From Struthio camelus (taxonomy: Eukaryota; Chordata; Aves; Struthioniformes; Struthionidae), in the NCBI RefSeq assembly GCF_040807025.1, contig NC_090967.1, positions 6,254,001 through 6,318,000 on the forward strand: a stretch of 64,000 nucleotides of DNA, read 5' to 3'. The first letter of the stretch is position 1. Each line of letters begins with the position of its first letter. The notes below the pieces were generated by a model. That model had not been told where the DNA came from. It was given only the letters and a program-made list of their open reading frames with translations, and searched no databases. Shown piece after piece: positions 7,641 through 62,152 of the stretch. Both the position numbers and the translations under genes were made by a program.

Positions 7641-7790
7641 GCTTTCAATCGCTCTCCCTTTGTAAAGGTGCATGCACCTCTGCTAGAAAGCGGCCAGCAA
7701 TTTTGGGGAGGCCAGTGGCTGCTGAGCCCCCTCTCCCCGCCGGGAGGGCAGAGCTCTCTGATGGTGGAAAGTCCCGGAGAATAGCGAGTC

Positions 7791-7864
7791 GGTTTTTACA
7801 TTCGGTTCTCTAGCTTTATGATATCACATACACTCATACAGCTAGATAACCAAAGAGAAAAACC
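7791..7864 (-). ncRNA. mir-9: miR-9 precursor hairpin (MEF2B-linked copy)
   Basis: The minus strand carries the complete 23-nt mature miR-9-5p at 7834-7856 (begins TCTTTGGTTATC, ends GCTGTATGA), identical to the sequence known throughout animals. A 14-nt loop at 7820-7833 separates it from the 3p arm at 7798-7819. The 3p arm differs from canonical miR-9-3p at two places: position 12 is G not T, and position 20 is T not A. Its seed TAAAGCT is intact. A perfect 7-bp lower stem (GGTTTTT with AAAAACC, 7858-7864 and 7791-7797) extends the hairpin. The 3p changes add mismatches to the duplex. miR-9 drives neural progenitor exit and neuronal differentiation in vertebrates. The gene lies 12.7 kb beyond the MEF2B poly(A) signal on the same strand, as MIR9-1 and MIR9-2 lie relative to MEF2D and MEF2C in human. 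The host transcript cannot be delimited from sequence alone. Confidence 0.97.
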
Positions 7865-10139
7865 AACCCAGTTCTTTAAAAACGGGCCTTGGTCACCCCA
7901 CGCACAGCACGCCCGGGGGGCATCGCTCTCTGTGTGTACCCAGCCCAGCGCAAACCAAGCACCGACCGCTCGAGCCCCGCCGAGGGACGGCCGCCTTTCG
8001 CCTCTCCTCGCCGCGTCACAGATAATAATTAAGAAGCCCCCAACATTTTCAGCGGGAGAGCAGGAATCGGCGCTTCCTGACCCGGCGCGTTGGGATGCCG
8101 GTAGCGCACCGGCCCGGCGCTCGCGCACCGAACGCACGCCGCACCCCAGCACCTAAGGCAACACCTTCGCAGCCCTGCGCCGGGGCAGGATGCTCCACCA
8201 GGAGCCGTCCCTGCGGCTGGTCCCTGCTTCCCAGCCACCTGCCTCCTTCCCAGCCCCAAATTCACCCCCAGACCCTCGCCAGGCCCTGCTCCCACTTTTG
8301 TAATTACTGTAAATTACTGGCACGGAAATGCTGACTCATGAGACTCGCTGATGAAGGGAAGAGCTCAGCGGAAAGGGCCCTGCGGGGTTTCCAAGGCGCC
8401 TCCGCTCTGCCCTCCTCTTCCTCCTCTTCCTCCCACAGCCCGGCTCTGCAGAGCCTGGAGAACCGGGCCCTGCTCGCTACCTCCAGCCCCACAACCCCGG
8501 TGGGTGGGGTGGGGGGGGAATCCCTAAACCCAGGGGGACCCTGACCCTGCATCATCTTGGGACCCGCTAGACCCAAGAGGGACCCGCACCCCCGGGGCGG
8601 GGGGGGAACCCCAATACCCAGGGAAACCTGCACCTCCAGCGGGGAACCCCATAGCCGGGGGGAACCTGCACCGCCGGGGGGGGCCAGGACCCCTCACCCA
8701 GGGCACCCCATCGCCTCCTGCACTCGCAGCAGCAGCCCGGCCAGGGGTGCCCCAAGCCTGGGCTGCGCCAGGGGGACAGTCCCGGGCTCGGGGGCAGCTC
8801 CCCAGGCCGGGGGGCGGGGGGGGAGTCTCCAGCCGTGCGGGGAGCATCGCGGCGCACCTGCCCCCGGTGGGGCAAAGCTCCCCCCGGGGCCCAAAAGGGG
8901 AGCAGGGAGAGGAAGGGGGGGGTACCGGGGAGAGGGGCCGGGCAGGGGTCCGGGCGGTACCTGCTCGCTCCGCTGCGGCCAGTAGCTGCCCGCAATCGCC
9001 GTCGGCTGCGGGTCGCCGCGTCCTTCCGAGCCTGGCCGGGTGGGGAAGGGGCTGGGCCGGGGCGGCGGGGGGAAGCCCCAGCCCCGCTCCCCGGCGCCGC
9101 CGGGACCCGCCGCTAAAGTTAAAGCAGAGGCGGCGGCGGAGGGCGGGCGGCGAAGGCGGGGGCAGGGCCGGGGCGGCCGGCGGGGACAAAGCCCGAGCCG
9201 CGACACTGGGACAGCCCGGGCCGGGCGGTGGGGCCGGGGCAGGGGTCACCCCCAACCCCCCCTCCGCCCCCCCTCGCCGAGGGCAGTGCCATTCGCCACG
9301 GCCGCCGCCGCCCCCGGGGGCCGGCCCGGCCAAGGCCCCTTTCCCAGGGTCGCAGCCTCCCGGCTGGCCAGCCCCGCCGGCCCCCCCGCCCCAGCCCGGC
9401 TACGGCCGGCCCGCCCCGTCGGGGAGGTGGCGGTGGCCCGGGGCTAACCCCGGCGGGCAGGGCTATGGCGGAACCATCCGCCCCCCCGCCCCCTCCCCCG
9501 GCCCCGGATCTGCCCCGGGGAGGCTGGAGCTTAAACCCGACGTGCTTGAAGCAGGGAAGGGCTGGGCCGAGGCGCTAGGCTCGGCGGGGTCGGGGGGAAA
9601 GGCCGGCCCGGCTGGGGCGGGGGGAATGGGGAGGCGGGGGCGGCCGGACCCTCCCGTCGAGGCTGCCCGGTTGCCGCCCCCGTTGGCGGGCTCCGTTTGC
9701 AAAAGGAAAAATTTGCACCAGATCATAAGTAAAAGCAGGCACGACCCTCACCTCCGGCAGAAGCAGGGCCGGGGCTGGAGGGCGCAGGACCCCCCCGACG
9801 GGTCCGGCCTCGTCTCTGCCCTCCGGCCGGGGAGAGACGCCTGGGGCTCGGCAGAGCCCGGGGTAGAGGGGGACCTGGGCTCGGGGGGTGCCGAGGGCCG
9901 CCCCGGGGCGCAGCGCCGAGGTGCCCGGCTCCACGTCCCCCCCGTGCGGCCGGCCCTGCCCGGCGCTCCGGGACCCGCTCCCCGCTCCCCGCTCCCGGCG
10001 CGGCGGGGCAGCCCCGGCCGCCCGCCCCGGTGGCACCGACCTGGGGCCGAAAAGGACTTGCAGGAGGGGAAGCGACCTTTCCCCGGCCCCCCGAAACGCC
10101 GTACGCTGGAAACGGTGCGGGATGGAAATGCAACGCGGA

Positions 10140-10475
10140 GCACAGCGGTGACCCGCCGTGTGCACACGCACTGTGGTGCACACACGCTCTGGTGCACAGG
10201 GGCCACGCAGGCACACACTCAGAGGTGTGCACGCTCTGGTGCGCTCCTGCTGGTGTGCACACACCCCCCGAGGCAGGCACAGGACCTGGTGTGCGCGTAC
10301 GGGAGCCCGTACCCTGAGGCGTGCACGGCGGTGCACACACGCTCTGGTGTGCGCGCACTGGGGCGTGCAAACACACACACACACATCCTGGTACACGCAC
10401 AGCGCCGCACAGGCACCAGTGCACACCCGCCCGTGTACACACACACACGCATGCACACACACACACACGGCAGGA
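10140..10475. repeat. Degenerate GTGCACAC-rich repeat, Z-DNA-prone
   Basis: About 335 bp of alternating purine-pyrimidine words (GTGCACAC, CACACACA, GCGCACTG), with an imperfect unit containing ACGCTCTGGTG. It ends in (CA)n runs near 10374-10384 and 10439-10467. Such sequence readily adopts Z-DNA. The coding-like translations across it are artefacts of the repeat. Confidence 0.75.
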
Positions 10476-10980
10476 CAATTTGGCTCTCCCCAGCCTCCTG
10501 CATCCTCCCGGCTCCGCAGCTCTGCCCCCTCGCCGGCCCCACTAGGCCGGCGGGGGCCCCCCGGTGACCGCCGAGTCGCACCTCGCTCCAGAGAAACCAC
10601 GGGAAACGAAACCAACAAGCGGTCCGGGCACCGCACCGGCCCCGGCCGCCCTCACGGTCACCGACAGCCGCCGGGGCCGGCTCCGACCTCCTCCTTCCCT
10701 GGGCTCGCCCCACTCCGGGGAGGAGGAGCCTCCTGCCCACGGCCCCCGGGCTCCCCCGGCCCCGGGACCCCGGGGCAGACCATCACCCTTGTACCCTGGC
10801 TGTGGGCACCCACTCAGTGTGCAAGCACCCACCCATCGCCCCAGACGGTCGGGCAGCGCTGGGAGCAGGTCGCAGCGGGCGGCGGGGCCCAGCTCCCGCT
10901 TAGAGCGCTCGGTATTTTGGGGAAGGACGGGAGAGCCAACGGCGCACGGCACCGTCCCAGCCACCTCTGCCCCCACTCGC

Positions 10981-10992
10981 CTTTATAAATAC
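10981..10992 (-). promoter_or_regulatory. TATA-like element upstream of miR-9
   Basis: On the minus strand the sequence reads TATTTATAAAGG, a good TATA-box match at the edge of a CpG island. Transcription starting about 30 bp downstream (near 10950) would run toward the miR-9 hairpin 3.1 kb away. Use as the miR-9 promoter is speculative. Confidence 0.25.
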
Positions 10993-11261
10993 AAATATCA
11001 TGTTTGGAGGGGGGAGCGGAAGCCATGCGGGGCCAACCCGTAAGTACCGGAGACCCCCGGGGGCAGCGGGGACCCCCGGGGGGGGAGGCGACGGGAAGAG
11101 CCGCCGCCCCGGCCGGGCCCGGCGCTCTCCGTGGTGCTGAACCGGGAGCGGCCGCCGCGCCCCGGCCCGGCCCGGCCCTGGCCCGGCCCCGACGGTCGCA
11201 CCGGGCCGGGCCGACCGGGCTTGTGCCTCCTTGTCCCTTCCCTTTGCAAGCCGCCAGCCAT

Positions 11262-11301
11262 TATTATTATTATTATCATTATCATCATTATTATTATTAT
11301 T
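11262..11301. repeat. (ATT)n/(ATC)n microsatellite
   Basis: About 40 bp of ATT triplets with a few ATC variants inside a CpG-rich region. It is a likely length polymorphism. Confidence 0.85.
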
Positions 11302-12387
11302 GCGATTCTTGTCGCCCAGGTGTAGGGCAAACAGTTCTGAACGTGGAGATTTTGGTGTCAAGGTAGCGGTTTATCTAATTAGCAGATTGTCCCCCCACGA
11401 ACGCCTTCTCCTCCCCCCCCCCTCACCCCAGAGAGCCGCTGCCGCCGCGGGGTGCCCCGGGGGTCGAGGACGGCCTGTGCACACGGACACCCCGAGCCGC
11501 CACCGTTACCTCCGCAGTCAACGCCGGGCTCCGAAATGTCCCTGCTGAAAACGGCTGGGGACGTGGCCGTATGTGGCCCTGGGAGGCCGGGGGCGAATGA
11601 GAAGGGGCGGCGACAGGGACACCCCCTCGGCCGTGCCTCGCGGCCCCGGGCCGGGCGGGCCGGGCTCGGCCCCGCTCGTGTCCACACTGCCCGGCGGCGG
11701 CGAGGCCGGGCGGGCCCGGGGGGCCGCCGCCTCCCGCTGCCTTTCACCGTCCCGCCGAGTTTCGTTTGCGAAACGCTCCTTTCCACGGAGGGCTCGGCGC
11801 GGTCCTTCCCGAAATGCTAAAACCCCCAACAACGACCTTCGCCCCAGAGCTGCGCCGGAGCAACGAAAGGGACCCACGGAGCGGCTCTGCCACCCGGGAG
11901 TGCCCTGGGGACCCGCAGGAAGGGTCCCCGGAGCAGCGCTTGGGGGAGCCGGCGGGGACAGGGCGCAGCATCCGCGCTGGTCTCGCTCCTTCCCCGGGAG
12001 CCGGCCCGGGAGCCGCCGCGCAGGGCCCGGGCGGGCCGCTGCGGCCCGGTTCGGCCCCGCCGGGTCCCCCGCCACCTCGGCCCCGGCAGCCGGAGGGCAG
12101 CCCAGCCCCGCTGCCCTCGGCGAACGGCTCCTTGAGCCCGAGGAGCCCCGCGGTGGCCCCGAGGCCGGGAGGAGAAGCTCGGCAATGCTGGCACGGAGAG
12201 GGAGGCCGCCCCACGCGTGTCCGCGGCGGGGGCCTCACGGGGCCCGGCCGGCCCCGCTCTTCCCCGGCACTTACCCGAGTCGTCGCCCGCCTCCATCCCT
12301 CGCTCGGAGGCAGCGCTCCGGCCCCGGCGCCTCTCTCCCCAGCTCTTTCCCTCGCCTACACCCTCGTGTGAATCAAATACCTTCACT

Positions 12388-12402
12388 ACAGCAGCCATGT
12401 TG
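12388..12402. promoter_or_regulatory. YY1-like motif in CpG island
   Basis: The word GCAGCCATGTTGG is the complement of CCAACATGGCTGC, a close match to the YY1 consensus (AAnATGGC). Such sites commonly sit just downstream of start sites in CpG-island promoters, on the strand carrying ATGGC, here minus. A minus-strand start near 12.4 kb would be a second candidate promoter for a miR-9 host transcript. Only the motif is seen. Confidence 0.3.
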
Positions 12403-13281
12403 GGCTCCGGTGCGAGCACGGCGCTCGCCGCAGGAGCCGCCGGCCGCCTCGGCGGGGGCGGCAGCGCCGGGAGCCGGCGCCTCGGGTCGGGGCTGCGGGT
12501 GCCCGGCGGGGGGAGCCGGGTCCCCGGGCCCCGCTCGGTGCCGCCGCAGTGGCCCCCGCCCAGCCTGCCCTCCCCGCAGCCCATCCCGGCACACTTGGCA
12601 CGTCGCGCCGGGGCGATCTGAAGGCGCGGGGGGCTCCTGTGCTCCCGGTGCGAGCTGCCAGCCCGGCTCCCCGCCACCCCGGCAACTTCCCACCGTTCCC
12701 GCTAATGCCAGAAATTGCAGCTGCGGGCAGGTTTCGCAGCCCGGCACCTGCACCGCGGCCGGCGCAGCGTCCTTCCTCGCCGCTGTAAATAACACACACC
12801 GGGTAACCGGGACCGGGCACGTCTCAGGGCTGCATTGGACAAGAGCAATGAAATTCCGCAATTACCTTCTCGTCAGACCTGCAAATCCCTCGGAAGCGCT
12901 CCTCACCCGAGCTCACCTGCGGAGGAAAAGAGAGAGAGAAAAATCTCTGTAACGCGAAGCAGCCAACACGACGGCAATCGCTCCAACTTGGAGCAACTTT
13001 CACGGCGAGGCTGGCAGCGCTGTAAGGGGGCGGGCGGTGCCGGTGCCCCGGCCGCGGGCAGTGCCCGGGGAAGGGCTGCAGCCGCTTCCCGGCCATCCGC
13101 GGCCGTTACCGCCTGCCTGCACCGGGCAGGGCATCCGCTCCCCGGACCAGCCCCCACCCAGCCGAGCGGGCAGAGCCGGGCCTCGACCCTTCCCAGAGGG
13201 CAAACCGGGGACACGGCCGGAGAAATAGAGGCAGCCCCGGCAATCCTGGCGTAGGGGCAACCCCACATCCAGGGGTATTTT

Positions 13282-14170: not shown

Positions 14171-17100
14171 GCACGCACAGCACTTCCTGCAACTAATACC
14201 GAGGAGGGTGACTGGAAATCAGACAACAAAACCACTCCAACCCGAACTGGGGGCCAAATGCTTTCCTCGACGCACGGCAGATATTTTTCTGTGCGGTAAA
14301 ACAACGGTGCGGAAATCCCCGCCGTGCTCGCTCGGGCAGAGGCAGGCGCTTTAGCACAAGAACAACCCGTGTTACTTTTTTAGAAAATTTTTTTTTTCCA
14401 GAGTAACCGAAATCAGCCCTTTTGTGACGGGGAAAATATCCTAGATTTCCGCGGCTAGGAACACAGCCTCGGAGCACGGATGGCATTTCCTCGAGGGTCA
14501 GAAGGGGCTAGAAAAGACGCGCACACAAAATAACGAACCGGCGACCCCCTCATCCCCGTGCAGCTTCAAATCCCCTCGCCTCCAGGTTCCTAAGCCCCTT
14601 TCCCCCCAAAATAAAAACATATCTGCACAACAGCAACTTCGCTCCAAAGCCGGCTCCGCGGTGGTGCGCCTCGGGAGCCCCTTACCTCCGGCAGCGGCAC
14701 CGGGCAGGGCCGTCCGTCCCGGGAACCCCGGGCTATAAACCCCGGGTCGCTTTTGTAAGTTTGCCAGAGTTTCCCCCGGCTCTCCCCTTTTGTGTCCCAT
14801 TGCCATCTAGAGGCCCTGATTAATTAATTTCACACTGTAGCCCCGGAGAAAATTTTCCCACAAACAAGTGGCCGGGAAGACATGTAGCCCCAAAGAAAAG
14901 GAGTCAACATCAAGTTCAACAGCATGCGGGAAGGCGATTTCCATAACAATCGCGTCTGAGCGAGCAGAAGTGCTCCCGGCGAGGGGGCCGGCGGCAGCCC
15001 CTGCGCACACAGCCGCCCGCGCTTTCCCAGGCTCCCTAACAATCACACACTGTTTGTCTTACAGATGCCAACGTTTGGGCATGGAGGTTGCCTTATGATA
15101 ACAGAAATAATGAACAGGGCTGGGGAAGGGGGGCTAGGAAGAGCTGAGGAGAGGGGGGAAATGAAGCACTTGGGGCAGGAGCGGCGGGGGGTGGGGGAGA
15201 AACAGGGGGAAAAAGGGAGAGATACAAAGCGGCCCCGGCGCACCGGGACACGCCGGGCTGCGCGGCCCCGCCGCCGCCCCGGCACCGACCTGTTGAGCCC
15301 CAACGGGAGCCCCCGGGCCGGGCAGGGCCCGCGGCGGAGGCGGCCGGGACGCCGCAGCGCCCAGCCCGGCGGAGCTGCCCGGGCTCGGCTTTACCCCCGA
15401 AGCGGGGACTTTCTGCGGGGCAAGGCGCGGCGGGGAAGCAGGGGACGGAGCCGGGCTAGGGGGGGACGGAGCCGGGCTAGGGGGGGACTTTGCCCAAGTT
15501 TGGTGCGACACCCTCCCCCCCCGCCCCGGCGCCACGCGTTTTCCCACAGCCCCCGGGGAGCGGGGGGTCCCTGGGCCGGGCAGCGGGGGCCGGAGCCCGG
15601 GGTGGCCGAGGCGGTGGTGGACGTGTCCTGCAACCCAAGCAGCTGGGCTCCGCCGGGCATTGTCCCCACGGAGCCCGTGGCCATTGTTCCCGGCGCTGCG
15701 GGAGCCGGAGGAAGGGCAGCTTTCCACGCCTCGGGCCCCTCCTCGCCCCCACCCCGACACTCGCACCGGGCTGGCCGAACTGCAGCCTTTAATCCCGGAA
15801 AAAAATGAAATAAAATGACAAAATAACCACCACCCCCGAAAAGCCCAGGTGAGGGGAGGCTCGGCCTCCCCCCTTCCTCCCCCCCCGCGGACTTCCTCCA
15901 ACTTGGGAGAACTGGCCGGGGGGAGCGGCCGGGCCGCCGGGGAGGGGGCGGCTGCCGGTGCCCGGCTCCCGGCGCCCCCGGCCGGGGAGTTCATTGCAGG
16001 GCAGGGAGAGGGAAGCGGAGACGAAAGGGGAGTTGGGGGGTATTTACCTCCCTCCGCACATCTGCATCCTTACTGATTTAGCGACAGCGTGCGCCGAGAG
16101 CCGCCGGGCACCGGCACCGGCACCCTCCCGGGGCGGGGGCTGGGGCAAGCGGCACCGGGCAGGAGGCGGAACCGAGAGAAATCCACCCGGGGAGCCGATG
16201 CGGAGCGGGAGAGCCGGGCTGCGGCTCCCGGAGAGCGCTGCCAGGAGCAGGGCTGTGGGAAGCGGAGCCCCCGCGATCACGTTGCCTTTACGTGGGGTTA
16301 AATAGATACGTCTGCTCGGGGCTTTAACGGGAGGCACCTCCGGCCCGGGGAGCCGGGCAGCCCCGACCCCCGCGGCGGCGGCGGCCGGGCCCCCTGGGGG
16401 CGGCGATACTGCCCAAACATCCATTTTGTCCCTTTTGGAAATGGAGATGGGAGAGAGGAGGGAAAACGCTCTTTTTTTTTTTTTTTTCCTTTCTCCATAT
16501 TTTACTACGTAAGGCATGACGTCCTCGCGTCGGGAGCAGGATAGGTTAGCCCTGCGCTGGTGGTAATGCATGGGGTTTGGGGGGGGCGAGGGAGGCGGTG
16601 GCGACTCTGGGAGAAAACCTAAAAATAACGGGGATTTTATTAAAAAAAAATAACCGTGACCCCGCTGGGTGCAGTCCCGCAGGGGCAGCGGGAGGCAGGG
16701 CCGGGGGGGCCGGATCCGGATCCGCCAAGCGGCTCCGCCGGGCTCCGAGCGGTGCGGGACCGTCAGGGCTCGGGCACCCGCCGGGACCGGGGGGGCCAGA
16801 TCCGGAGCGGGCTGGGGCTGGCGCAGCCGCTGCGGCAGGAGGACGCTGGCAGCGCTGCGACGAGGCTCCGCCGTGCCAGCTTCACCCCGGTGCACCGGGA
16901 GCGCCGTGCCGCAGGCGTGCCCGGGCCCAGAGCTGCTCCCGAGCCTGTGCCGGATTTTTCCTCTATCTGTGCAAATTCAGCAGAAATTGACTATTTTGCA
17001 ACTAAAAAAAAGAGACATTTTAAGCGACCGCAAAATCCTGTGCTGCTAATACCTCTCAGCTCCGAAGTGGCCGGGAGCAGAGAGCGACCGCTCCCTTTGG

Positions 17101-20561: not shown

Positions 20562-20567
20562 TTTATT
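20562..20567 (-). terminator. MEF2B: MEF2B poly(A) signal
   Basis: AATAAA on the minus strand, 580 bases after the MEF2B stop codon. It is the only canonical signal I noticed in the downstream stretch and would place the transcript end near 20545. Confidence 0.75.
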
Positions 20568-24100: not shown

Positions 24101-25266
24101 CCCGGAGCCCCAGCGCCGAAACCCTTCACCGCTCCGGGCTGCTCGCCGTGCGGAGGGGAAACTGAGGCACGAAGGGCAGCCAGCAGCCGAGGATGCCCGG
24201 CGGCGGCGCTGAGCCTACCTGGCGGCAGCGGCCCCGGCGAGCGTCCCGACGGCTGCCCGTGCTTTGGCGCGGCCGGCTTGAAGGCGGGCGGGCGGCCCTG
24301 GCTCTGCGGGGAGCCGCCGGCGCTGCCGAGGGTCCCGTCGGCGCCGGCCGGCGAGGAGCTGCCATAGGCTGCCTCGTGGCCGGGCAGCGGTGCCGGGGGC
24401 TGTGGGGCAAAGCGGGGGGGCCGGGGTCAGAGCCGAGGAGCTGCCGGCACAGCCGGGGTACGGGTGACCGGCCGGGGAGCCCCTCCACCCCGGCCTCGCC
24501 ACCACTCACGTAAAAGCGGGGCCGCGCCACCGTCAGGTCCATGCCCTCGTTCGGCCGCCGCATCTTCTCCCCGGCGTCCAGCCCCTCGTCCAGCTCCAGC
24601 TCCTGGCTCTCCAGCCCCAGCCCCTTGCGCTTCAGCGTCTGCCAGGCGGCGGGGCGGTGAGCGGGGGTCCCGCCGGCCCCCGCCGCCGGCCCCGGCTCGC
24701 CGCCTACCTCGAGGATGTCGGAGTTGGTGCGGCTCTCGTGCGGCTCGCTGTACTCCGTGTACTTGAGCAGCACCTTGTCCATGTCGGTGCTGGCGTACTG
24801 GAAGAGGCGGTTGGTGCTGTTGAAGATGATGAGGGCGATCTCGCAGTCGCACAGCACGCTCAGCTCATAGGCCTTCTTCATCAGCCCGAACTTCCGCTTG
24901 GTGAAGGTCACCTGCAGAGCAGGGAGGGGGGACGCGGCGCTGCCCCCAGGCCCGCGGACCAGGCACCGGCACAGCCCCCCCCCCCCACTTTCCTCCCAAG
25001 CGGCGCCAACCTCCCCCCAAACCCCGAGCTGCCACCCAAGCGCCCTGCAGGCTCTGGAAGACCGAGCACCCGCAGGCTCAGGCGTGAGAAGAGCTGCTTT
25101 GCCTTTCTCACGGCCTTTTCGCAGCCCTAGCGGCACCCGCCAGGCTGCCGGCCGGGTCCCCGGCCTCCCCATCGCCGCCGTGCCCGCCTCGTCCCTCCGC
25201 GGTGGCTCTCACCTGCCGGTTCCGCTGATCCAGTATTCGACTGATCTGTATTTTTTTCCGGCCCAT
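21149..25266 (-). CDS. MEF2B: MEF2B, MADS-box transcription factor (8 coding exons, 411 aa)
   Basis: MEF2B binds CTA(A/T)4TAG sites as a dimer and regulates muscle, neural and germinal-centre B-cell genes. Coding exons on the minus strand are 25266-25213, 24911-24708, 24638-24510, 24399-24219, 23054-22909, 22497-22386, 22298-22202 and 21461-21149. All have GT-AG ends and consistent phases. Residues 1-57 are the MADS box ([18 protein letters not shown], then [20 protein letters not shown]), and 58-86 are the MEF2 domain ending TNSDILE. K4, Y69, N81 and D83, sites of human lymphoma mutations, are all present. Exon 3 ([19 protein letters not shown]) and the words [10 protein letters not shown] and TKTPPPLYL identify MEF2B rather than A, C or D. 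The C-terminus has IKSERVSP (K335, S340), the MEF2-family phospho-dependent SUMO motif. Exon 5 has a second in-frame donor 12 bases upstream, giving 407 aa. Intron 2 is only 69 bp. Confidence 0.95.
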
Positions 25267-26461: not shown

Positions 26462-26477
26462 CAGCTGCTATATTTAG
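26462..26477. promoter_or_regulatory. E-box directly abutting a consensus MEF2 site
   Basis: CAGCTG (26462-26467) runs straight into CTATATTTAG (26468-26477), a perfect match to YTA(A/T)4TAR. The pair lies 1.2 kb upstream of the MEF2B start codon in an AT-rich notch of the CpG island. E-box plus MEF2 pairs are the classic muscle-enhancer arrangement, and MEF2C is known to regulate itself through such sites. Autoregulation of MEF2B is inference. A second MEF2-like site, TTATTTTTAA, is at 27016-27025. Confidence 0.5.
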
Positions 26478-28000
26478 CAGATCAAAACTAATTTTAATTT
26501 ATGGAAGGAAATTGTGCTGCGGTTCCCACGGCCCCGCTGCCACCCTCTGTCCCGGGCCCACGCACGGCACCAAGGTACGGCGGGCTGCCGAGGCTCCCCG
26601 GGCCGCCCGAGCCCCGCTGCGAGGGCACTTTCCGGAAAAAACCAGCTATTCCCTGGTGAAAATGAAGAGGTTTTCCCAACTATTCCCTGTGCCTGTGCAC
26701 AGGCAGGGCTGGGGGTGCCCCGCGGCGCGGGGGCAGGCGGCCGGGGCGCTTGCAGGCAGGTGGCCCCGGGCCGGAGGGGCTCAGGTCTCGCCTCCCCACC
26801 CCGATCCCACGGCCTTTCGTTCAGGGTGCGGAAATGTGAGTTTTTTTCCCCTGGTGGACGCTGGCTCTGAGCCCGGTTTGGCCCTCGCAGGCCAGATGCT
26901 GTTGCGCGGCGCAGTGGGGGGGGACGGTGCCTCCGGCTGCCCGAGGCCGCGGGGGGCCGCGGCGTGCCGAGCCCTCGCGCGCTCCCCCCGCGCAGGACAC
27001 GCTCACCTCAAAAGGTTATTTTTAAAGGCTCGCAAACCTCAGGCGGGAGGGGAGCGCGCGCTCAGCGGGGTGCTGGGACCGGCAGCCCTCCCGCGAGCAG
27101 GGCCCCCTCGGCCGCCCCGGCGCCCCGCTCCAGCATCCCGGCTTGCAGCACGGAGCGGGACGGTCCTGGCCCCGCGCGATGCCGCCGCCCTGGAGCATCC
27201 CCGGTGGCCGCCAGCCCCGAGCCCTGCGCGGCTCTGCCCCTCGGCATGTCCCCATCCGTCCCCCGCGAAGCGCGGCAGGGTCCGGCGGGAGCTGGGTGCC
27301 GCGCGCCGAACCGGCTGGAGGGAGGAGAGGCCGCAGACGGGGAAGAGCCGAGCGGCCGCAACTCCTGGGACCCCCGCGGAGCCGAGGGACCGAGGGCGCC
27401 CAGGTGAGCTGCTCCCCGGAGGCAGCCGCCGGGCTCGGCCCCGCGCTCCCAGCCCAGAATAGCAGGCGGAGGAAGGAGGTGCGAAACGAGAGAAGGGGAA
27501 GTGGCAGACAGCGCCGGCAGGACGGGCCCCGCGGCTCCGCGGCACGGGCGCTGGGCTGGGAGCCGGCCGGCGAGGCCTCGTGCAACGCGCGGGGCGCTTT
27601 CATCATCTGCCTCCCCGAGCAGCTCATTACCAGAGCCGGCGAGCGGGGCCGCGCGTTGCACGCCGCTCTGCTCCCCCGGGGCCTCGCCGGGGTCCGGCCT
27701 CGGCTGCCAGCTCCCCAACGGGGCTGGCCTGCCCCCGCGCCGTGACCCCGTGCCTGGGGTATGTTGCCAGGGCTTTGCCCGGCCGCGGTGCTGCGGGGGC
27801 AGCCAGGGGCACCGCACGCAGGGACAGACGCTCTCGGGACCGTGGCGGAGGGCGTCGCAGCTCGGGGGCCGTGCGCCCCGAGTTTGCCGGGGCTCAGGCG
27901 CCGCAGTGCGGCAGGGGTGCCGAGGGACGCGGCTGGATCCCTGCTGGCTCCCCCGGCAGGTATTAAGGGTCTGGGAGGGGAGGGGAGGTTTTCACTCTGG

Positions 28001-38336: not shown

Positions 38337-43479
<5,143 letters not shown>

Positions 43480-46123: not shown

Positions 46124-49100
46124 CTACCTGCGGCCCTGAGCAGAGTTCAGCTGATCCTTCATGGCTATGGCGTGTTTGAGCAGACTGTCAATGCTCTTGA
46201 AATACACGCTGCTGTCGGTCATGTTCTTTATGGCACTGAAACAGAGAGAGGGGGATGGAGGGAGAAGGAGGACTGGTTAATACTTTCCTGGGCATCGCTC
46301 TTTTAGTGCGCACACACACGCTGACAGGAGGGTACTGTTAATAAGAAGCCTCAGCTTTATACAGTGTTTTGCATCTTCAGACCCCAGCTAGTGGGTTGAT
46401 TTATTGCAGGAGACTGGCAGCTCTGCACTGGACACAAAAGCAGGGAAGAGCTGGCTTGCTAATCAAAGCGAAGCAGCCAAGTTTCATGGTAACAGTTCAG
46501 AGAACTGCCTCACACTGAGGCACTTCCACCCTGACCACGCTCCCTGCTGCCTGCCTGGTGTTGGCCAGGGAGAGAAACAGAAGCACAGCAGAAGCTGTTC
46601 ACATCACACTTGCAAAGCCTGTGCCCACAAGCACAACCCTCTTCCTTGGAAAGGTCTCCTGTACCTGCAGGCGTACTCCACAGTGTAGATCGCTCCTTGA
46701 CTTTGCTCCTCCCAGCTCTGCATGTCGGACTGAAAGCAGATCACAGAACAGGGAATGAGAACAAGGCATTGTTAGGGGCACACTAGACAGATGCTGTCCT
46801 CAGCAGTGCAGCCCTTGAGATACGCTTTGCCAGGCCTGCCCAAACAAGGGCTGTGACTGCTTTTCACTCGAAATTGCATTTAGACTGTTTTGCACTTGAC
46901 GGCTTTGACACACTCTGGGTCTGAGCACCATGCGCTAGTATTTAAAAGAAACATTCATTGTGCATATTTCTGAAAGCGCTACTGCTTCGGGCCAATGCTT
47001 TGGATGCTCTAGCAAAATTCCCCTTGGTTGTAGATGTGCCCATGAGCCAGCTGAGAGCCAAGGTACGACAGGCTCCTAGCAACCAGCAGCTAAACTGAGT
47101 GTAAGGAACCAGCTGGAAATTTCAAAGCTTTCAGCTCGCCTAGCATGCCTGGTCTGGCAAGGCAGCTAGGATCAGAACTAACGCAGCTGCTGGCAAGTCC
47201 AGTCCTCAGTCTCACGCAAAACCAGGCAGAACAGCTTCTTTTGCAGCGCTGAAAGTTCTTTCTCTTTCTCAAGCATTTTCACAGTCACAGGTTTCCCCGT
47301 CCTCCAGTCTGCTCTGAAACTCTGGCTGTCTGAACCCAAGTAATAGTCAGTATTCAATAATGAGAACATTCAGAATGCCTTTTCTTTCAAGGGATTAGAA
47401 GGAGCCCTGTAAACTTCACACAGACTCAAGCAGAACTACAAGCAGCTAATTCTGGCTTGGGAGATAATTGTACACAGCAGCTCCATGGAAAGGGAACACC
47501 AAACAAATGCACAAGTCGCAACGAAAATGTAGTTGAACTCAGAGGTGTAGCTCAATAGATGACTTTTTCAAAAGTCCTCAAGTAGCTCAGGCACTCTAAA
47601 ATATGTTCTCATGGGAGCTAATTCTCAAGTCTATTCTGCTGACTCTAGTTACAGGCCAGAGGAAATCCAAGGGCCTCTTTTTATGACTGAAGGAGGTCGG
47701 GTAGGAGCTTGGGCTGCATCCAAAATCCTTTCTGCTGTTCAAAGCCTGTCCTACATCAGGACACTTGACCACATAGCTCTAAACTACAAAAAAAAAAAAA
47801 AAACCAAGTCTCTGCATGCAATGCTCTGGACAGTTCTCTGCAGGAGAGGGTCCTTTGACCCAGGACTCACAGCTCCACACACTGTCCTCCATGGTCCACA
47901 CTCATCCCAGAGTCCAGTCACATTTTACAGCACTGTATCTGCTGCTGAAAACATACTTTGCTGGCAGAGGTAGCTGCAAAAGAAGTAAGGATCTTCCTGC
48001 AGCTACTCAGCCTGTTCTCTCCAAGAGGTGCTAGCAGATCTCTAGTGATGTTTAAGAGCCCAGCATCACACTGACTCAGTCATGTGCGTCACTAGTGCAG
48101 CACTCTCCTACCACTCTGGTGAAAGGAGAATCCGACCCACAAAGGGAAGGAGACCCCAGCTAATGGATTATCAGCACCATTTCCGCCAGCAGCAAGGCAG
48201 TCTCTGGACAATTCAAAGCATCAATTGTCAGCTTGCAAAGCCCAGTACAGGATGAGAGCACAGAGACAGAGCTGGAAAGCTGGAAACAGATGGCTGCAAA
48301 GTTCCTGTGAAAAAGTGGTGGAGATGATAAAGCCAGTCTGGTACAACAGTGTTTTTTCTTTGGTCCTGGAGTTTCTGAGCACCAGTAGATTTTAATCATC
48401 ATCCTGTATCAGAGCCAGTGATGTCCATTCCCAGCATTTCCACCACTTCCTGGGATTTTCATGTCCTTAATTAGGAACAAGAGTCTTTCCCTAGAGCTCC
48501 TGACTTCTTAATCTCTTTGTGATGGCCTTTCTTTAAATTCCCAGGACGTGTCCTTGGATGTCATTTAATAGCTAAAGCCAGCTATTAATATACAATAGCA
48601 TTAATGATGTATCACTGTTGCTTGCAGTAAATTAATGGGGAGGTATAAGTTCTCAAAAGAACAGGGGAAATACAAAAAGGCTGCTTTGTGCAGAGTGGGA
48701 GCAGGGCTTAGCAGCACCGCTAAGGCGCACGGAGGCAGCCAGGGCCTTGCATCACGCTGTATCTTATCAGTGATGTGGTAAATCTGCCTAGAGAGTTTGA
48801 GATGGCAAGGAAGGTATTAAGATTATTTTTAATCAAATGAAAGAAAGTTGCTTGTTGTAAAGGCATGGAGGTGACCTTCTCCTTGCATAAACTTTTTCTC
48901 CCTCTCCCTCCCAGTTTTTCCTAGGTTTAAGCCCTCTGGGAATTTCAAAGACTGCATCACAGTAGAACTCTGCCAGCCAGAGATGGAGTTGCTGCATGGG
49001 CCAAAGAAAGCTGGAAACCACCAATAAATCTTGTTTCCTTTTATACATCACCTTCATCTTGGGACTAAATTACATGAGGGGGAATCCACACAGAACATTC

Positions 49101-54315: not shown

Positions 54316-59524
<5,209 letters not shown>

Positions 59525-60689: not shown

Positions 60690-62152
60690 CTAGAGCCTCT
60701 CCCCCAGCACCCTGAGGTGGTACACCACGATCCTCCCGAAGAAGTCGGTGCTGTTCTCAAAGGTGATCCTCAGCTTATCCAGAGCCGTCTCTTCCACCCG
60801 GAAGCTGTGCAGAGCGCGTCAAGGAGGAAACAGGCAGAGGGACGCAGTGACATGCGAGGCAGCTGCAGGACAAACTCCAAACCGCGACTCAGGTGCCAGA
60901 CCCCCTCCCTCTGCGGGTGGCTTTGAGCCCCTCTGCCAAGCCATTCGACCCAGCTCGCAGTGAACCAAAGGATATCTGCAGGGCGTTGACATCCTCGGGG
61001 TATAAGTCAGATATTTTCACCAGTTCCTCGCCCGTTCTGCAGCCTGAGGAGGGCAAGGGTGGAAGGAGCCGTGCGGTGGGCTCACGTGCCGGGGGAGCCT
61101 CTGCTGGCTGCCACGGCCACGTTGGGGCTCAGCTGCTCTGTCTCAGCCACCCTGACGAGCCTCCCCACATGGGCTTTGCTGCAGGGAGCCGGGTGGGAGC
61201 AGCACCAGCACCCGCTCACTTGCCTCCTGTCTCCCTTCACCTGGCTCTTGGGTGCACCGTGGGAGCAAAATGACCTGTCCTAACACAAGGATCTGCTGGA
61301 TCCAGCCTAGGACCTGATGCAGGCCCCGTTGTCTAGCCCAGCACCTGCATCCTGAATTTGGGGCTGCAGAAACCCACAGGTGTTGTAGGGGGTTTGTTAT
61401 CTAATGGATTGGGATTAGCAGATGGCAAGGCATTTTCTAGCCTGCAAACGAGGGGTCCTGGAGGACCACAGGGCCTGCACTATTGACCCCTTTCTGCTCC
61501 AGCCTCAGCCCCCCCACCAGAGCTTCAGGAACAGTTCCCAAAGACCTCTGGGCTCTGCAGTAAAAAGTTGCGGGATCCCAGTGTGGGTGAAGAGAGGGAA
61601 AGGCACCGCACATCCCCAGGCAGCTCCTCACCTTCCAGCGTGCACAGCCGGCTGGAGAATCCCCCCTGGAACTGGATGTGGAGCCGCGAGACCTTGACGG
61701 TGCGGGGGAACTCCAGGGTGACCCACTGGGACGTGCCCTAAAGGCAGGAACGACACCGGGGCTCAGTCACCAGGTCCCCGCAGGGCTGGGAGCCCACAGC
61801 TCCCTTGGCACAGCCTGGCCTGGGGCGTAACGCCCGCACGGCCATGAGTGCGGGGCACCCTCCAGCTTGCCCCGTCCTCGTCGCCCAACCTGGTCCGAGT
61901 TCCAGCACGTCTCCTCGCTCGCGTCGAACATGTGCTTCTTCCCGAACTGCTTCACGTCCCGGTTGAGCACGGAGCTCACCCTGCAGGGACAGGCGCCGCC
62001 GGCCCGGGGACGCGACGGCGGACGGTGTCAGCCGGGCAGCGAGGCGGCGTCGGGGCGCACCGGGGGCAGGGAACCGGGGACAGCGTGGGGCGCCCCGTCC
62101 CCTCGACTCACCGCGCGGCAGTGTCAGCGCAGATCAAGGGCACCTCGGGCAT
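60690..62152 (-). CDS. NR2C2AP: NR2C2AP, nuclear receptor 2C2-associated protein (5 coding exons, 140 aa)
   Basis: NR2C2AP (TRA16) binds the orphan receptor TR4/NR2C2 and represses its activity. It is built as a single galactose-binding-like (discoidin-type) beta domain. Minus-strand exons are 62152-62112, 61980-61890, 61737-61632, 61043-60976 and 60806-60690. The protein reads MPEVPLICADTAAR, then VSSVLNRDVKQFGKKHMFDA, EETCWNSDQGTSQWVTLEFP, LHIQFQGGFSSRL and DFFGRIVVYHLRVLGERL, tracking human (139 aa) throughout. Introns 1-3 are GT-AG. Intron 4 is a U12-type AT-AC intron, and only that choice keeps the frame. A 5' noncoding exon probably ends at 62340 (GGGCG|GTGAGTA) and joins at 62173. The gene is convergent with RFXANK. 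Confidence 0.96.
60807..60975 (-). other. NR2C2AP intron 4, U12-type AT-AC
   Basis: The minus strand reads CTGCAG|ATATCCTTT at the donor (60975 downward), the exact U12 5' splice site. A perfect TCCTTGAC branch site (consensus TCCTTRAC) lies with its A 12 bases before the acceptor GCAC|AGC (60806). Treating it as a GT-AG intron breaks the frame. As AT-AC it joins NALQ to SFRVEE in phase 0, matching the human layout PEDNNSLQ|TFPI. The intron is 169 bp. Confidence 0.93.

Follow-up and report, generated by a model that had tools for sequence, protein, structure and literature searches.

Amplification of the miR-9 genes in vertebrates parallels the genome duplications, and eutherians have lost one of the vertebrate classes, named miR-9-4 or miR-9b (Coolen et al. 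2013, PMC3834235, in the portion of the paper available). The locus described below, which a first-pass annotation had called the "missing" fourth member of the MEF2/miR-9 set, probably falls in a fourth class that had already been described as lost in eutherians; the gene class is known, and only the linkage to MEF2B and TMEM161A may be unstated in print. Four miR-9 entries for frog and two for birds stood in miRBase 21, and chicken mir-9-1 is closest to zebrafish mir-9-4 (PMC5824543, excerpt). The available part of a study in rat reports that Mef2C and Mef2D adjoin miR-9 genes and that there is no Mef2 near miR-9-3 (PMC3979806). In mouse, miR-9-2 is carried by the Visc-1 transcript in the interval between Mef2c and Tmem161b (PMC4585502, excerpt), and chicken MEF2D has been placed on chromosome 25 (PMC7006513, excerpt). 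Gnathostome miRNA genes have been named by subgenome (PMC8789304, PMC8728216); in the accessible text of these two papers, a search for mir-9 matched only MIR-92 and a reference title. MEF2 occurs 0 times in the main text of PMC3834235. Titles and abstract openings yielded no link between miR-9 and either MEF2B or TMEM161A, which supplements and miRNA catalogues may well hold.

We analysed a 64,000-nucleotide stretch of Struthio camelus DNA (the window), which lies on an 8.03-Mb contig (C26) and contains a miR-9 hairpin beside MEF2B. We put at about 0.92 the probability that the miR-9 gene found here is intact and represents the MEF2B side of a set that arose in the two early vertebrate genome duplications. 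Coordinates of the features are collected in Table 1.

Table 1. Features of the miR-9 locus and its neighbours (positions within the window)
Feature	Position	Strand	Basis
mir-9 precursor hairpin	7790..7865	-	RF00237 bounds, 74.8 bits, E 7.4e-13
Mature miR-9-5p, 23 nt	7834..7856	-	exact match, 0 mismatches to canonical
miR-9-3p arm	7798..7819	-	locus alignment and script; exact mature 3p ends inferred
Hairpin including 13-bp basal stem	7785..7870	-	fold; 7858-7870 pairs with 7785-7797
UG, -14 from 5p start (basal Drosha motif)	7869..7870	-	sequence position
CNNC starting +19 after inferred 3p end (processing motif)	7776..7779	-	sequence position
MEF2-consensus site between MEF2B and miR-9, candidate control site	16619..16628	+	pattern match
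Candidate poly(A) signal of MEF2B	20562..20567	-	sequence signal
MEF2B exon 2 (MADS/MEF2 domain)	~24714..24911	-	PF00319 1.5e-20; PDB MEF2 chains; own-genome search
MEF2B coding exon 1	~25213..25266	-	reading frame
BORCS8 exon	46145..46240	-	PF10167 1.2e-6; codon-bias exon finder coordinates
RFXANK exon	57918..58040	+	ankyrin Pfam families; PDB RFXANK chains 3v30, 3uxg ~2e-18
Probable NR2C2AP exon	60699..60812	-	reading frame

The Rfam covariance model RF00237 matched the hairpin along the whole length of the model, scoring 74.8 bits where the cut-off is 58.6, and this was the sole Rfam match at the gathering threshold in the window. The mature 5p agrees in all 23 positions with what we take to be the canonical miR-9-5p, our comparison standard. 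It is the only match in the window at three or fewer mismatches, where 100 shuffles gave an expectation of 0.00. The hairpin folds at -36.8 kcal/mol (z -6.96), and none of 200 shuffled sequences was equally stable (0/200). The earlier report of a perfect miR-9-5p in a minus-strand hairpin was thus accurate, coordinates included. With a score over the cut-off, a canonical 5p and a stable hairpin kept across loci, the sequence belongs to the mir-9/mir-79 family; two changes in the 3p arm and a basal stem of its own set it apart from the remaining miR-9 loci in the genome. Both 3p changes lie outside the seed, so the 3p arm is diagnostic of the locus and distinguishes the output of the MEF2B-side gene from that of the others.

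A basal UG and a downstream CNNC are motifs of Drosha processing. Their spacing at the MEF2B-side hairpin (UG at -14, CNNC at +19) would suit such processing; at the other miR-9 loci of the genome the CNNC starts at +18, and no UG was found there between -16 and -12. Extrapolating from the family, a non-coding neural primary transcript would be read from the minus strand in the MEF2B-TMEM161A interval and cut by Drosha and Dicer. Its 5p arm would then enter Argonaute and join the common pool of miR-9-5p from the other loci, with silencing of miR-9 targets as the expected outcome. By analogy, the most likely role of the MEF2B-side locus is that of an ordinary neural miRNA gene. Immediately upstream of the hairpin, on the hairpin's strand, a GC-rich stretch (8001-13000, 70-79% per kb) is a candidate promoter region of the primary transcript. 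The locus could instead be a fourth miR-9 gene in decay that has lost its transcription or processing, as the two 3p-arm changes, one of which opens an A-G mismatch in the duplex, might suggest; we regard this as very unlikely in view of the perfect 5p, the unchanged 3p seed, the strong fold, the preserved basal stem, and a UG and a CNNC near their expected places.

Homology between the miR-9 loci of this genome is confined to the hairpin (72-77 nt; 86.1, 86.3 and 87.0% for the three locus pairs). Beyond it we found one 33-base match between the MEF2B-side locus and miR-9-3 (E 0.008), which we took as chance. The first-pass annotation had pointed to a recent duplicate of another miR-9 locus as the outcome that would speak against an ancient origin. 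The loci proved to be equally divergent (86-87%) and their flanks to lack clear homology, from which we conclude that the MEF2B-side miR-9 is not a recent duplicate. A lineage-specific copy of miR-9-2 or miR-9-3 that had recently landed near MEF2B by chance would carry an identical mature 5p, as any miR-9 copy does, but it would hardly be expected to stand equally far from both other loci with flanks unlike either, and we consider it extremely unlikely.

The stem argues in the same direction, in that the basal part has its own sequence compared with the other loci and is mostly still paired there. Over the three loci, 93.8% of all cells were paired, a score reached by 2 of 500 shuffles, and five stem pairs were changed on both sides, a number reached by 4 of 500; slid versions of the structure paired at most 50% of cells. 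The upper helix, which has 19 pairs, is invariant. The 13 basal pairs comprise five that are doubly changed, three changed on one side, three that are invariant and two that depart by unpaired cells only, and 84.6% of the basal cells are paired (6 of 39 do not pair). Since the comparison has three rows, one of which supplied the structure, the pattern is no more than suggestive of covariation in the stem.

The hairpin lies 12,697 bases beyond the candidate poly(A) signal of MEF2B and both are on the minus strand, in agreement with the 12.7 kb and the shared orientation given previously. The MEF2 paralogues cannot be told apart by exon 2 alone, for which MEF2C came first among the PDB chains. 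We assign the gene in the window to MEF2B because BORCS8 and RFXANK are nearby and because the four other MEF2 exon-2 places of the genome are on other contigs; its later reading frames also resemble, by eye, what we take to be MEF2B. MEF2D was considered for the gene in the window and ruled out, as a MEF2D-type exon is on C30 and BORCS8 and RFXANK are in the window. Chains 3v30 and 3uxg were the best natural single-domain PDB matches for the RFXANK exon, among many ankyrin proteins. The exon that we presume to be NR2C2AP had no Pfam match. The codon-bias exon finder gave 9 segments only, and the list of genes in the window is accordingly incomplete.

We then compared the locus with the rest of the 1.45-Gb assembly (262 contigs). 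RF00237 detected at least four miR-9 places, on C26, C12, C40 and C41 (8 rows, both strands each), a lower bound, as are all counts from this search, in which 64 of 228,109 candidates were scored; a DNA search returned the same four places. MEF2 exon 2 was found on C26, C40, C41, C12 and C30 (5 matches, 6 scored candidates). Gene names on the other contigs are based on family matches and on human and chicken gene order. We take the C40/C41 locus to be miR-9-2 and the C12 locus to be miR-9-3, after the human precursors, and, from neighbours and gene order, we assume MEF2A on C12, MEF2C on C40/C41 and MEF2D on C30. Gapped alignments show C40 and C41 to be nearly identical in the samples compared. 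Around miR-9-2 they agree at 99.4% over 2216 bases and at 100% over a further 574, an intervening 288 bases being unaligned, and around MEF2C exon 2 they agree at 99.8% over 3204 bases, so that at least three distinct miR-9 genes are visible.

The gene order around miR-9 is repeated. On C26, MEF2B, miR-9 and TMEM161A follow each other in this order, all on the minus strand; on C40 and C41 the order is MEF2C, miR-9-2 and TMEM161B, all on the plus strand. All 25 TMEM161 matches fell on these contigs (9 on C26, 8 on C40 and 8 on C41), and C12 and C30 had none. The spacing is tighter at MEF2B: the hairpin is 16.8 kb from the nearest scored exon of MEF2B and 22.3 kb from that of TMEM161A, and on C40 miR-9-2 is 113.6 kb from the nearest scored exon of MEF2C and 165.5 kb from that of TMEM161B. 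Genes with a link domain (Pfam Xlink), probably HAPLN and lectican genes, are present on every contig that has a MEF2 gene. Each of C12, C26, C30, C40 and C41 has some, together 26 of 36 matches, the other 10 being on C1, C2, C5, C6 and C14. They lie in the vicinity of MEF2B and of MEF2D, but on C40/C41 ~2 Mb separate them from miR-9-2, and on C12 4.7 Mb separate them from MEF2A. Rh-family exons are distributed more unevenly, with 5 of 16 matches on C12, ~98 kb from miR-9-3, 2 on C30 between the link-domain genes and MEF2D, 9 on C3, C18 and C23, and none on C26 or C40/C41.

The shared order and strand, together with link-domain genes on every MEF2 contig, point to a block that was copied by whole-genome duplication and later suffered losses. 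An ancestral block of MEF2, miR-9 and TMEM161 would have been copied whole, with order and strand kept in the MEF2B and MEF2C blocks. The matching order and strand on C40/C41 also weigh against a recent copy that landed near MEF2B by chance. The proposal that a MEF2-miR-9 pair was multiplied by the vertebrate genome duplications is in keeping with the repeated order and the link-domain genes on all MEF2 contigs; as an account of ohnologues it is well supported and right for MEF2B and MEF2C, weak for MEF2A on account of distance, and may or may not hold for MEF2D. A miR-9 is adjacent to MEF2B and MEF2C, 4.87 Mb from MEF2A and not visible at MEF2D. MEF2A and miR-9-3 do share one contig (C12), but on opposite strands, and at that distance the pairing had been overstated as a link.

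Around MEF2D, 180 kb, of which 166 bases are N, were searched by a script allowing up to five mismatches. Its readable bases contained no miR-9, and Rfam found none in 15 of the 18 pieces of this region, each scanned alone. The N bases form two short stretches, so a MEF2D-side miR-9 may be either present or absent, and the proposed survival of all four copies may or may not hold. These results could be read to mean that the original MEF2D-side miR-9-1 moved to MEF2B and is for this reason not seen near MEF2D. We give such a move hardly any probability, given the 166 bases that read N and, on the far side of the MEF2B-side hairpin, TMEM161A, which corresponds to the arrangement at MEF2C and argues for an original position.

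As an original MEF2B-side gene, the locus resembles the described miR-9-2 and miR-9-1, linked to MEF2C and MEF2D, in that a miR-9 adjoins a MEF2 gene, with TMEM161B beyond it in the MEF2C case (PMC3979806, PMC4585502, both in excerpt). It differs from them in having MEF2B and TMEM161A as partners and in its distance of 12.7 kb to the poly(A) signal of its MEF2 gene. By linkage and elimination we assign it to the miR-9-4/miR-9b class, the additional vertebrate class that eutherians lack in the account of PMC3834235. The fourth vertebrate miR-9 class would thereby be anchored to one defined ancestral order of MEF2, miR-9 and TMEM161, so that the mammalian loss could be dated from one short interval.

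In rat cells, Mef2C acts on miR-9-2 (PMC3979806, in the part available). The MEF2 consensus occurs at three sites in the window (4 rows, one palindrome being counted twice), with 0.43 rows expected. One of them lies between MEF2B and miR-9 (Table 1), and it is a guess that MEF2B might act on its neighbouring miR-9. A more far-reaching idea, which appears unlikely to us, is that MEF2, miR-9 and TMEM161 were kept together as an old regulatory unit in which MEF2 drives miR-9, and that in this genome MEF2B and miR-9, 12.7 kb apart, form such a feedback pair, which would have been lost in eutherians, where the interval between MEF2B and TMEM161A has, we presume, narrowed. Target sites for the miR-9-5p 7-mer on the minus strand of the window occur only at 40316 and above, with none near the end of MEF2B. 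The other two MEF2-consensus sites are 20 bases apart (26468-26497), ~1.2 kb upstream of MEF2B coding exon 1, and would be compatible with a possible control of MEF2B by itself.

The succession of MEF2C, miR-9-2, TMEM161B and link-domain genes is shared by C40 (70.4 Mb) and C41 (89.9 Mb). Z and W of palaeognath birds share a large region, and the two contigs are perhaps Z and W with such a region, or else unmerged haplotypes. A CR1-tail motif, sought as a marker of lineage, was not found. Unlike C40 and C41, contigs C12, C26 and C30 were single-copy in the same searches.
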